From assembly GCF_000212395.1 (NCBI RefSeq), contig NC_015499.1:1819001-1883000 (forward strand): a DNA stretch of 64,000 nt, in the 5' to 3' direction. The translations under genes were made by a program, and so were the position numbers. Positions 48,686-54,050 of this stretch are shown one piece after another. The notes beneath the pieces are model-generated. The model saw only the letters and a program-made list of their open reading frames with translations, was not told the origin of the DNA and ran no database searches. Every line of letters starts with the position of its first letter. Position 1 is the first letter of the stretch. This DNA comes from Thermodesulfobium narugense DSM 14796. GTDB taxonomy: Bacteria; Thermodesulfobiota; Thermodesulfobiia; Thermodesulfobiales; Thermodesulfobiaceae.

Positions 48686-49276
48686 TCAAGTAGATTTTGA
48701 AGTAAGAGTCTTTTCAACCATATCACAAATTATGTGTCCGATCATAATATGACACTCCTGTATTCTTGGCACTTTTTTTGATGGGACGCTTATACAAATA
48801 TCAGATAGTTTTTCCATTTCGTTGCCAGTCATACCTGTAAGTGAAATTGTGCTTATATGATAAAGTTGAGCAATTCTTAAAGCCTTTATTAAATTCTTAG
48901 AATTTCCACTTGTTGAAATTGCAAAAAAGACGTCGCCCATCTCACCCAGTGCCTCAATCTGTCTTGCAAAAACGCTTTCATATCCAAAATCATTTGAAAC
49001 AGCAGTAATAATTGAAGTGTCAGTAGTAAGAGCTATAGCTCTTAGTGCTTTTCTTTCCAATAAGAATCTTCCAACAAACTCTGCTGCAATATGCTGAGAA
49101 TCAGCAGCACTACCGCCATTTCCAGCAATCAAAAGTTTTTTCCCAGATCTTAGCGCTGCAGATATAACTTTAACGCTCATTTTAACAGTTTCTAAAAATT
49201 TATCATCAGAAAGCAGTCTATTTTTTAGCTCCAGCGATTCAGATATTGCTTTTTTAATTTCATCTTTTACAATCAT
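48686..49276 (-). CDS. gmhA: Phosphoheptose isomerase GmhA
   Basis: Converts sedoheptulose 7-phosphate into D-glycero-D-manno-heptose 7-phosphate for LPS core or glycan. The 196-residue SIS protein has AGNGGSAADSQHIAAEFVGRF (51-71, given in parts: GNGGSAADSQHI, AAEFVGRF), with His62 and Glu66, and a C-terminal IQECHIMIGHIICD. It overlaps the glycosyltransferase by 4 nt, so heptose supply and glycosyl transfer are linked. Confidence 0.94.
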   Translation of the reverse strand: MIVKDEIKKAISESLELKNRLLSDDKFLETVKMSVKVISAALRSGKKLLIAGNGGSAADSQHIAAEFVGRFLLERKALRAIALTTDTSIITAVSNDFGYESVFARQIEALGEMGDVFFAISTSGNSKNLIKALRIAQLYHISTISLTGMTGNEMEKLSDICISVPSKKVPRIQECHIMIGHIICDMVEKTLTSKST

Positions 49277-51660
49277 TTACTTTCTCTTTCAAAAAAGTTG
49301 AGCATCTCTTTGGAAAAGTTTTGGACGGAAAACTTTTCCATCACAAAAGCTCTTGCCCTTTCTCCAAGTTCTCTAGCAAAATCTCTATCTTTAGCCAATT
49401 TAATCATAGCACTATACAACTCATCTTCATCAGGGAGCGCCCATTCCCAATCTGGGTTATATCCTGAATTATTCTGACCTATTTTTTCAAACTTATAGCT
49501 TAAAAGTATGGAATTATCTTTATTCATAAACTCAAGATTCCCACCATACGCTGTAGCTATAACTGGCTTTCCAAGCCACATAGCCTCTATTAAAGGAAGA
49601 GCCATACCTTCACAGCTGTGAGGCGAAACATACGCATCAGCAGCATTTAATATTGTAATGTAACCATCTCTATTTGTAGTTTCGTCTACAAACACAACAT
49701 TGTCAATAATATCCAATTCTTTAATGTATTTTGTAAGTTTTACTTGATTTTCAGAATATTTTGCAGCCTGAAAAGTCTTAAAAATTAGATATACATCGCT
49801 ACATTCTCTTACAACTCTCGAGAGAGCCTTCAGAAGCAAAAACGGCCTTTTTCTGTCAAAATCTCTGAAAAAGTCTAAAATAAACATGAAAACAAATGAA
49901 TCATAAAAACCAAAGGTTGCTCGAAGATTCTTTCTGTGTTGTAATATTCTCCAATCGTAAGTGAATGGATATGGGAATTTATATACTTTTTCTCCTCCAG
50001 CTTTTATTAAAGCACCTTTTACAAAATCCGAATAACACATAACTTCATCCACCAAAGAAAAAGCCCTTGGGTCATCAAAATATTTGTCAAATTCCCAATT
50101 CCAGATTGCAGACGTTCTGCCTCTAAAAATATTACTCGATATATCTTTAAGATAAGCCAAATCCTCTGAGTTAATGAAAAATATTGTGTTATTAAATGAC
50201 AGATTATTAACATTAAAGCATGCGATATTTTTAATCTCTTCTTCAGAAACTCTCAAATTTGAAGCAACGGGCAAAAAGAAAAGAGAACATGGAATGCCCA
50301 GTGAAGAGGCCTTTCTAAAAAAAGATCTCGCCTGAACTCCAAGTCCAATTTTTGATTCAAAAAACCCAACAATATTTATCCCAAAGGAACTATGTTCAAT
50401 ACGAGAAGTATAAGTGAGGTTGTAATTAACCCTTAAGATATCCTTCAATGCTGCCGTGTTTATTGTGCCCGTACTGGAAAAAGCTAAGTTTAAATCCTGC
50501 CTCGACTCGATCACACATCTCGCAAACCTGCTTATAGAACTATATTTTGGGTGTAGAAAGGAAAGTATTGCTCTTACGTTCTCACTGTCAGGTAAATATG
50601 GATTTCTAAATCTCTTAAATATTTCTTCTGAGTACCTCTTTCTTACTTCAAGAGGTACTCTTATTTTTGTTAATGGGAGGTATTCGAAATAATATGGCAA
50701 TTCTTCAAACTTTCTTTTGTTCTGGAAAAAGTCTTTATTATAGTATTCATTTATTAACTTTACATATGATTTGTTTATTGATCCAAAAAAGCTCACATGA
50801 TCGAACAAAAATAGGTCATCTAAATAAAATCCACTAAATTCAAAAAGTGACAATTTCCTAAGTTGATTTTTTCTGTTTACAAAATAACTAGATTCTTTAA
50901 ATACGATATCTTCTTTTTTAACGTTATAAAAAGTCAAAGTATACTGCAAATCGTCTAGCTCAAGATATTTAAGCTTTGAAATCTCTTTCTTATGGAAATA
51001 GGAAATATTAGCTTCGGTGTTTTTTAAGGCATATATTGATTCTTTGAAACGAATTACGTCATAATCGTCCAAAAGATCGTATAAGCCCCTTACGTCAGAA
51101 AGGCAAAAAATATTTTTCGATAAGTACAAACTCTTCTTAAAGCCAACATAAGCAAAGTATTCGAAAACATACGGCAAAATCCAGTTTTTCGCTTCGTCCT
51201 TTGTGGATGTCCAAAGAACTTTATGCATATCTCTGCAGGAAATTTCTGACAAAAGCTCACACAAGAAAAAAAATTTAATGCCTTTAGATACTAACTCATT
51301 AAAGAGTCTAAACTCTCTAATATCTTTTAAAAGGTCTACAACTACTACTACAAAATCAATTTCTGGATTATTTCTTAAAAAGCTATCCCTTAAATTAAGA
51401 GCGTAGTGCATCTCGTCTTTGTTAATTATAGTAAACGCAACATCTTTATGTTGAACAGGAATTTTAGGAGAGTAGTCAAAATTTATCTTAACAACTCTTA
51501 GATCTTGCCAGAAATCTTTTGCTTTAAAAATTTCATATTTTATCTTTTCTAAACCTTTACTTAACGAAGTTGCAAAACCTTTTTCCTGATAATTTTTTAA
51601 AGATTTTCTAAATGAAATATATCTTGAAAGAGAACTTTTAAATAGAGTACCCTTAAACAT
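49273..51660 (-). CDS. Two-domain glycosyltransferase (GT8-like + GT4)
   Basis: A 795-residue fusion. The N-terminal region (about 60-330) looks like a GT-A nucleotide-sugar transferase (VAFTIINKDEMHYALNLRDS, in parts TIINKDEMHYALNL; then FKKSLYLSKNIFCLSD), but the metal-binding DxD position reads SKN, so it may be inactive. The C-terminal half (about 430-795) is a GT4 GT-B enzyme, with CEGMALPLIEAMWLGKPVIA holding the two Glu. It starts 1 nt after the second selenoprotein gene and overlaps gmhA. LPS or flagellin glycosylation is plausible. Confidence 0.85.
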   Translation of the reverse strand: MFKGTLFKSSLSRYISFRKSLKNYQEKGFATSLSKGLEKIKYEIFKAKDFWQDLRVVKINFDYSPKIPVQHKDVAFTIINKDEMHYALNLRDSFLRNNPEIDFVVVVVDLLKDIREFRLFNELVSKGIKFFFLCELLSEISCRDMHKVLWTSTKDEAKNWILPYVFEYFAYVGFKKSLYLSKNIFCLSDVRGLYDLLDDYDVIRFKESIYALKNTEANISYFHKKEISKLKYLELDDLQYTLTFYNVKKEDIVFKESSYFVNRKNQLRKLSLFEFSGFYLDDLFLFDHVSFFGSINKSYVKLINEYYNKDFFQNKRKFEELPYYFEYLPLTKIRVPLEVRKRYSEEIFKRFRNPYLPDSENVRAILSFLHPKYSSISRFARCVIESRQDLNLAFSSTGTINTAALKDILRVNYNLTYTSRIEHSSFGINIVGFFESKIGLGVQARSFFRKASSLGIPCSLFFLPVASNLRVSEEEIKNIACFNVNNLSFNNTIFFINSEDLAYLKDISSNIFRGRTSAIWNWEFDKYFDDPRAFSLVDEVMCYSDFVKGALIKAGGEKVYKFPYPFTYDWRILQHRKNLRATFGFYDSFVFMFILDFFRDFDRKRPFLLLKALSRVVRECSDVYLIFKTFQAAKYSENQVKLTKYIKELDIIDNVVFVDETTNRDGYITILNAADAYVSPHSCEGMALPLIEAMWLGKPVIATAYGGNLEFMNKDNSILLSYKFEKIGQNNSGYNPDWEWALPDEDELYSAMIKLAKDRDFARELGERARAFVMEKFSVQNFSKEMLNFFERESK

Positions 51661-51661
51661 A

Positions 51662-51937
51662 TCAAGCTACCACTATAAGTTCTTTGAAAAATAAAAATTT
51701 TTTCAAACCAATTCTTGTCTTATTCTTAAGGTTCAACTCCTTTGGTATATAAATTTCTATTCCCTCCTGTTCAAAAACTTTATAGGCTATACCTTCAAGT
51801 GGTTCTCCCGCTCTAACTGAGGGAGGCAAAGGAACCCTACTTCAAGAAAAACATGATGAAGCATTTATAAAAAAAATCTTTGAACCCTTTGATTTTATAT
51901 ATTCTTTAGCTTCTTTATCAAATTCAAATTTAGGCAT
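51662..51937 (-). CDS. Selenoprotein 2, CxxU motif, TGA recoded at codon 32
   Basis: A 91-residue protein when the TGA at 51844-51842 is read as selenocysteine. The motif is Cys29-Phe-Ser-Sec32 (SSCFSU), followed by PPSVRAGEP and EGIEIYIPKELN, and a GLKKFLFFKELIVV end. It aligns to selenoprotein 1 at IxxKGxKIF..., the CxxU, PSVRxGxP and YIPK. The ATG overlaps the upstream gene by 8 nt and has GGAGGT 4 nt away. The stop lies 1 nt before the glycosyltransferase ATG. It resembles small 'CC/Se motif' redox proteins known from databases, as I recall. The function is unknown; thiol-selenol redox chemistry is likely. Confidence 0.88.
51805..51825 (-). promoter_or_regulatory. Bacterial SECIS element of selenoprotein 2
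   Basis: Hairpin CTCCCTC-AGTTA-GA(GC)GGGAG, where a GC pair of nucleotides bulges on the 3' side. It begins 16 nt after the TGA, and its loop begins 23 nt after it. The loop has G at position 2, as bSECIS elements favour. The coding content here is PPSVRAG. Confidence 0.82.
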
Positions 51938-52232
51938 CTTTACCTCCATCTAAAGCATATATAAAAATATATTCCTTGCCATAAGAGCTTCTCTTTGCAT
52001 CGACCACTAGATCTTTGTCGTAAGAAAAATTTTTCGGTATATAAACTACAATATCATTAAAATACATACAAACATACTTATCAAATTCTTTCTTAGGTCT
52101 TCCCCATCTAACTGATGGGATTCCTGAACCAGTTCCTCAAGTGCTACACAACAAATCCCTCGATGGCAAGATATATATTTCTTTGCCGCTACTTTCAATT
52201 AGTTTTATTGCCTTTTTAGTTAAAGATATCAT
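51930..52232 (-). CDS. Selenoprotein 1, CxxU motif, TGA recoded at codon 32
   Basis: A 100-residue protein when the TGA at 52139-52137 is read as selenocysteine. The motif is Cys29-Ser-Thr-Sec32 (LLCSTU), followed by GSGIPSVRWGRP and VVYIPKNFSYDK. The N-terminus (MISLTKKAIKLIESSGKEI) recalls the start of HesB/IscA-type proteins, so a remote link to that fold is possible. No other stop interrupts the frame. The ATG lacks a good ribosome binding site; a -10-like TAATAT lies 15 nt upstream, so a very short leader is likely. The next gene starts within its last 8 nt. Function is unknown; a redox role is inferred. Confidence 0.88.
51942..51947 (-). promoter_or_regulatory. Ribosome binding site of selenoprotein 2
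   Basis: GGAGGT ends 4 nt before the ATG of the second selenoprotein gene, inside the end of the first. It supports the overlapping, coupled start and shows that this ORF is translated independently of being a remnant. Confidence 0.8.
52103..52119 (-). promoter_or_regulatory. Bacterial SECIS element of selenoprotein 1
   Basis: Perfect hairpin CCCATC-AGTTA-GATGGG. It begins 17 nt after the TGA and its 5-nt loop begins 23 nt after it, the same as in selenoprotein 2. The G at loop position 2 and the distance fit the known E. coli fdhF arrangement. Confidence 0.85.
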
Positions 52233-53375: not shown

Positions 53376-54050
53376 ATGTGCAATGTGTGCAGCAGAAGAT
53401 CTTTTATTAAAAAACTTATTGGTAGCTTTGTTGCTTTCAAGTTGTTTTCAATTAGCTCAGATTCACTTGCGGATTCATCTAGCGAGGTGTGGGGTCAATG
53501 CCCAAAAGGGCTTCAATATGACCCATATCCTGGCAAATGCTCAAGATACATTGACACAAACAACGATGGCTACTGTGACTATTCAGAGCCACCTCCAAAA
53601 TCTACATCCAATATAAATCCATCTTATTCACCCAATACAGACGAAAACTTTAAAAGCACACAACCATTGTTTGGTGACGACATAGCTGAAGCAGCAAACA
53701 GAGAAAGAAGACGCTCAATTATTGAAAGTTATAATACAGGAACACTGTCCATATTAGCAATTCTTTTTTCCTTAGTATCTAGCTTTTTAGTACAGAAGAA
53801 AATAATAAAAAAACAAACACTTCTAAAAATATGTAACTTTGTCTTAGCAATATCTTTTGTAATATCTGCAACTCTTGGAATGATCCTTTCACTTAAATAC
53901 GATGGTCTTATAAGCCTTCTTTTACCGTCCTGGGTTTTGTTTTTGCACGTAGAATTTGGGATAGTCTTTTGTGTTTTTGCGATTCTACATTTAGTTCTAA
54001 ATTGGAAATCAATGCTTTGCTTGTTTAATCTTAATGGTAAAAAAAATTAG
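53376..54050 (+). CDS. Tat-exported membrane protein with DUF4405-like C-terminus
   Basis: A 224-residue protein. The N-terminus CSRRSFIKKLIG is a Tat motif (SRRxFxK). A periplasmic Cys-bearing region contains DTNNDGYCDYSEPPP, an EF-hand-like acidic loop recalling Ca-binding motifs. At least three membrane helices (about 120-215) follow, with His in LHVEFGI and LHLVLNW, as in cytochrome-b-like DUF4405 domains. GGAGGT lies about 5 nt before the ATG. Heme binding is an inference. Confidence 0.72.
   Translation: MCNVCSRRSFIKKLIGSFVAFKLFSISSDSLADSSSEVWGQCPKGLQYDPYPGKCSRYIDTNNDGYCDYSEPPPKSTSNINPSYSPNTDENFKSTQPLFGDDIAEAANRERRRSIIESYNTGTLSILAILFSLVSSFLVQKKIIKKQTLLKICNFVLAISFVISATLGMILSLKYDGLISLLLPSWVLFLHVEFGIVFCVFAILHLVLNWKSMLCLFNLNGKKN

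Follow-up and report, generated by a model that had tools for sequence, protein, structure and literature searches.

Two overlapping reading frames interrupted by TGA

Two overlapping frames on the reverse strand of the Thermodesulfobium narugense DSM 14796 genome (a single contig of 1,898,865 bases, G+C 34.5%) are each interrupted by one TGA triplet, which raises the question of whether they are decayed genes or genes for selenoproteins, and what such products might do. Both lie in the 64,000-nucleotide stretch that was analysed as a whole, referred to here as the window. Gene A (51930-52232, minus strand; ATG at 52232, TAA at 51930) was predicted to encode a 100-aa selenoprotein with a CSTU motif (C29, U32), the in-frame TGA being located at 52137-52139. 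Gene B (51662-51937, minus strand; ATG at 51937, stop at 51664-51662) was predicted to encode a 91-aa selenoprotein with a CFSU motif (C29, U32) and an in-frame TGA at 51842-51844. The two reading frames share 8 bp.

The first-pass annotation had described overlapping reverse-strand frames with a single TGA at codon 32 and a Cys at codon 29 in each, and both features were seen in the two translations. It had also stated that neither frame held any other stop, which was correct for the interior of both, while the terminator of gene B is itself a TGA (TAA in one ortholog). The products are homologous as had been proposed, with 29% identity over 86 positions (E 2e-7); they are paralogues, and the description of the pair as two independent genes was therefore abandoned. 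The occurrence of the TGA at the same codon position in both is attributable to the common ancestry of the paralogues.

A group 1 glycosyltransferase gene (49273-51660, minus strand) comes next after gene B and starts 1 bp past its stop, so that it is probably co-transcribed with the pair, and nothing was found in it that points to a function in common with genes A and B. The neighbouring genes, including the glycosyltransferase, a SIS-domain sugar isomerase and a TPR protein, gave no functional lead. A search of the window against Rfam returned an SRP RNA only, and the window is without tRNA genes. Elsewhere in the window (53376-54050, plus strand) is a gene for a 224-aa protein with a Cys-rich start (MCNVCSRRSFIKK...), which matched no Pfam family and is kept in a contig of a metagenome-assembled genome (MAG), L039.

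Conservation and selection on both sides of the TGA

A phylum-wide search covered the source genome and three other genomes, all from one genus (n=4). Gene A followed by gene B was present in the same order in all four, with both TGA triplets at codon 32. The MAG contig L039 carried the same pair in the same gene neighbourhood, and a profile search of genome contigs (alignment A2) returned this locus only.

Selection on both genes is purifying on either side of the TGA, with Nei-Gojobori dN/dS values between 0 and 0.29. Values for gene B were 0-0.09 before and 0-0.10 after the TGA, and those for gene A were 0.14-0.29 before and 0.11-0.28 after. Selection thus persists downstream of the TGA, which argues that the triplet is not a dead stop.

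Paralogues and distant relatives

Gene B matched the NCBIfam family NF041239 (Moor_selen_rel, "CC/Se motif family (seleno)protein") at 59.5-59.6 bits, over the curated cut-off of 40 bits, and is a member. Gene A scored 32.2 bits (E 8.7e-8), below the cut-off, and can be regarded as a divergent relative only. NF041239 is listed in a 2026 review as a known selenoprotein family with a CxxU motif, a hypothetical protein predicted in Moorella thermoacetica (PMC13188914). The earlier suggestion of a new gene family that pairs two selenoproteins consequently fails as far as the family is concerned, since gene B belongs to one already recorded; the part of it that concerned the tandem pair may stand, as no description of such a pair was found in the Thermodesulfobium and Moorella selenoprotein literature searched, though an earlier mention elsewhere is possible. 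Pfam searches assigned A, B, the relatives and the Cys paralogue described below to no family, and weak matches such as YcxB were below cut-off.

Two further paralogues were identified in the source genome. Gene C (L001, G000:C1:1155437-1155712), located between two tRNA genes, has Cys at the U32 column, no interior stop and no partner Cys at position -3. Gene D (L004, G000:C1:1530165-1530380, minus strand; coding frame about 1530100-1530440) is a third selenocysteine paralogue of 114 aa with a CGAU motif, present in three of the four genomes and situated next to phoU and a gene of the universal-stress type. It is longer and divergent (24.8 bits against NF041239, below the cut-off), is under strong purifying selection and has a significant hairpin. 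A recent tandem duplication was considered as the origin of genes A and B and rejected, as the tree placed A, B, C and D on deep separate branches and so gave it no support.

Members of NF041239 were also found in three other phyla by a search of 290 genomes selected as relatives, extended to the phyla of three matches. In an alignment of 13 members, including relatives from these three phyla, the U column held Cys or TGA in all 13; Cys was found in C, L040, L041 and L046 and TGA in A, B, D and L042-L044. Random residues at this position had been named as an outcome that would speak against selenocysteine, and the relatives showed only Cys or TGA, with Cys homologues among them. The partner Cys was variable in position, lying at -3 in A, B and D and at -2 in L042-L044, and is missing from the Cys forms, which suggests that the CxxU pair is a trait of some selenocysteine-containing members rather than of the whole family. 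L042, L043 and L044, from another phylum, have CTU or CSU (CxU, not CxxU), are located upstream of a membrane-protein gene and can form an almost perfect hairpin of 8 bp, which spans +10..+29 from the TGA. One genome (G297) contained two Cys-type members, L048 and L046, about 300 kb apart.

Decoding of UGA

The genes required for selenocysteine insertion, the absence of which had been proposed as grounds for rejecting the selenoprotein reading, were all found in the genome. They comprise selA (531.3 bits), selD (323.4 bits), a tRNA-Sec gene (selC; 74.3 bits, anticodon tca) and, directly downstream of the latter, selB (366.7 bits). The selD gene (L052, G000:C1:1602705-1603628) is probably a selenoprotein gene itself, having a CAGU motif and one in-frame TGA in all four genomes. 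UGA also serves as a genuine stop, ending gene B and the Cys paralogue C, so that a general change of code is unlikely.

Two alternatives to selenocysteine were weighed. If the TGA were a true stop, genes A and B would be pseudogenes or products of sequencing error, and under translation table 11 there is indeed no long ORF in either frame. The same TGA nevertheless recurs across four genomes and in a MAG contig with an intact frame downstream, and the low dN/dS after it in both genes is difficult to reconcile with decay; the claim that a shared in-frame stop is hard to explain by error or decay was thereby upheld. The conservation data refute this alternative, which was dropped as having next to no probability. 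The UGA could otherwise specify a different residue (Trp, Gly or Cys) through an altered code or a suppressor, as readthrough by itself does not name the residue inserted. The use of UGA as a stop, the complete set of selA, selB, selC and selD, and the relatives with Cys at the U column stand against this, and a changed genetic code was likewise set aside, with decoding as a residue other than selenocysteine judged very improbable. Taken together, the conserved TGA triplets, the purifying selection, the selenocysteine machinery and the Cys-or-TGA column in relatives make it very likely, as judged from sequence, that genes A and B encode selenoproteins.

Each gene has a SECIS-like hairpin shortly after the TGA. 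In gene A (52102-52120, minus strand) this is TCCCATC-AGTTA-GATGGGG and in gene B (51805-51825, minus strand) it is CTCCCTCAGTTAGAGCGGGAG, the latter being weaker in the ortholog L034. The AGTTA loop lies at +24..+28 from the TGA in both, with G-U in the loop. Hairpin loops in gene D, selD and the distant relatives lay between +18 and +31 after the TGA. The hairpins of A and B were not stronger than those of synonymous-codon shuffles (z -1.4 to +0.5), and codon conservation within the hairpin (6/7 in A, 3/7 in B) was without clear excess. The hairpins of D, selD and the distant relatives exceeded the shuffles (z -2.1 to -3.8), and the Cys paralogue C gave no hairpin signal against them (z +0.3, +0.6). 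It is plausible that the A and B hairpins are SECIS elements.

Predicted fold

AlphaFold models of A and B were built on four-sequence alignments of the window and L039 proteins and had mean pLDDT values of 78 for A and 83 for B, the C29/U32 loop being the least confident part of both. Foldseek gave IscA, SufA and their relatives as the top matches of both models, with weak best E values (5.9e-3 and 1.6e-2). Among the ten VIA-align matches listed per model, all were IscA, SufA, DsrR or other A-type or Fe-S-biosynthesis-like proteins, or models of that size class. The best was IscA (1r94) in both cases, with Z 8.8, rmsd 3.2 A and 89 aligned positions for model A and Z 8.5, rmsd 3.3 A and 84 aligned positions for model B. 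An hhalign comparison of the family with IscA, SufA and two relatives placed U32 on IscA Cys35 (probability 54%, E 1.3e-4). Cys99 and Cys101 of IscA were invariant in alignment A6, and no counterpart of the C-terminal CGC was found in A, B, C or the aligned distant relatives. These comparisons predict an IscA/SufA/HesB (A-type) fold for A and B.

Proposed function of the pair

We consider it highly probable that genes A and B are translated as selenoproteins of the NF041239 type, with an A-type fold, a thiol or selenol role and products that are probably made together. Under this model SelB and tRNA-Sec would decode UGA at codon 32 as selenocysteine, probably with the aid of the hairpin just downstream. 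The products would be small, single-domain proteins with selenocysteine in the loop that follows the second strand, the site taken in IscA by Cys35, its first cluster ligand. The most likely role would be thiol/selenol chemistry on the A-type fold, either as a C29-U32 selenenyl-sulfide redox switch or as a transient carrier of metal, sulfide or persulfide; a standard Fe-S cluster scaffold is less favoured. The overlapping frames would be translated in succession, so that A and B are probably produced together. We infer that selenocysteine at the first-ligand position has a redox or carrier role and that A and B act together.

Two other functional readings share parts of this model. Thioredoxin-like oxidoreductases would operate through a C29-U32 selenenyl-sulfide, which would agree with the CxxU motif of A, B and D and with the entry of the family as CxxU in PMC13188914. 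The fold matches listed were IscA-like with thioredoxin in none, however, and the shift of the partner Cys from -3 in A, B and D to -2 in L042-L044, together with its absence in the Cys forms, weakens the idea of a CxxU redox pair, so that this reading is possible but doubtful. As ordinary A-type Fe-S cluster carriers, A and B would have selenocysteine in place of a cluster ligand, consistent with the fold of the predicted models and with the IscA Cys35 position assigned by hhalign. The C-terminal CGC is absent from A, B, the Cys paralogue and the aligned distant relatives, though, and the additional Cys29 is not characteristic of A-type proteins; we regard an ordinary carrier as unlikely.

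A bolder extension of the preferred model, with a thiol or selenol role on an A-type fold, would be an obligate complex of the two selenoproteins A and B, built on an IscA-type fold. Such a complex, specific to Thermodesulfobium, could use selenocysteine to carry sulfur, selenium or metal or to act on them as a redox unit, and would work alongside the Cys paralogue and the CGAU paralogue of the cell. This is speculative and we would give it only a small chance of being correct.

Relevance and comparison with known systems

Three aspects of the locus may be new, namely the conserved tandem pair, the presence elsewhere in the genome of a distant third selenocysteine copy (CGAU) and a Cys copy, and the match of the predicted models to the IscA/SufA/HesB fold with the selenocysteine column on IscA Cys35 and no CGC. 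The pair illustrates that conservation and machinery together allow the confident recovery of a gene with an in-frame stop, and as A and D fall below the NF041239 cut-off, a pipeline based on that cut-off could miss both. A link between the CC/Se family and the IscA fold, with selenocysteine at the first-ligand site and the other ligands missing, would provide the first testable mechanism for this family. Both the conserved tandem pair and this link may be worth following up.

The HesB-like selenoprotein family TIGR01911 resembles A and B in being a small selenoprotein, and its name suggests a relation to IscA/HesB. It differs in having a UxGP motif (PMC13188914) in place of the CxxU of A and B, and was not among the NCBIfam matches at E up to 1 for any of the 13 members. 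The likeness to IscA, SufA and DsrR (2k4z) lies in the predicted fold and in U32 at the first-ligand position of IscA Cys35, while A and B differ from IscA and SufA in lacking the C-terminal CGC, in an identity of about 10% and in having no Pfam Fe-S_biosyn match. NF041239 is matched over the whole length by B, and A, C and D also give matches to it, with selenocysteine or Cys at the same column. The locus differs from that family as recorded in that two selenocysteine members are located side by side, that A (32 bits) and D (25 bits) are below its cut-off, and that one genome combines a Cys member with selenocysteine members beyond a single copy (A, B and D).
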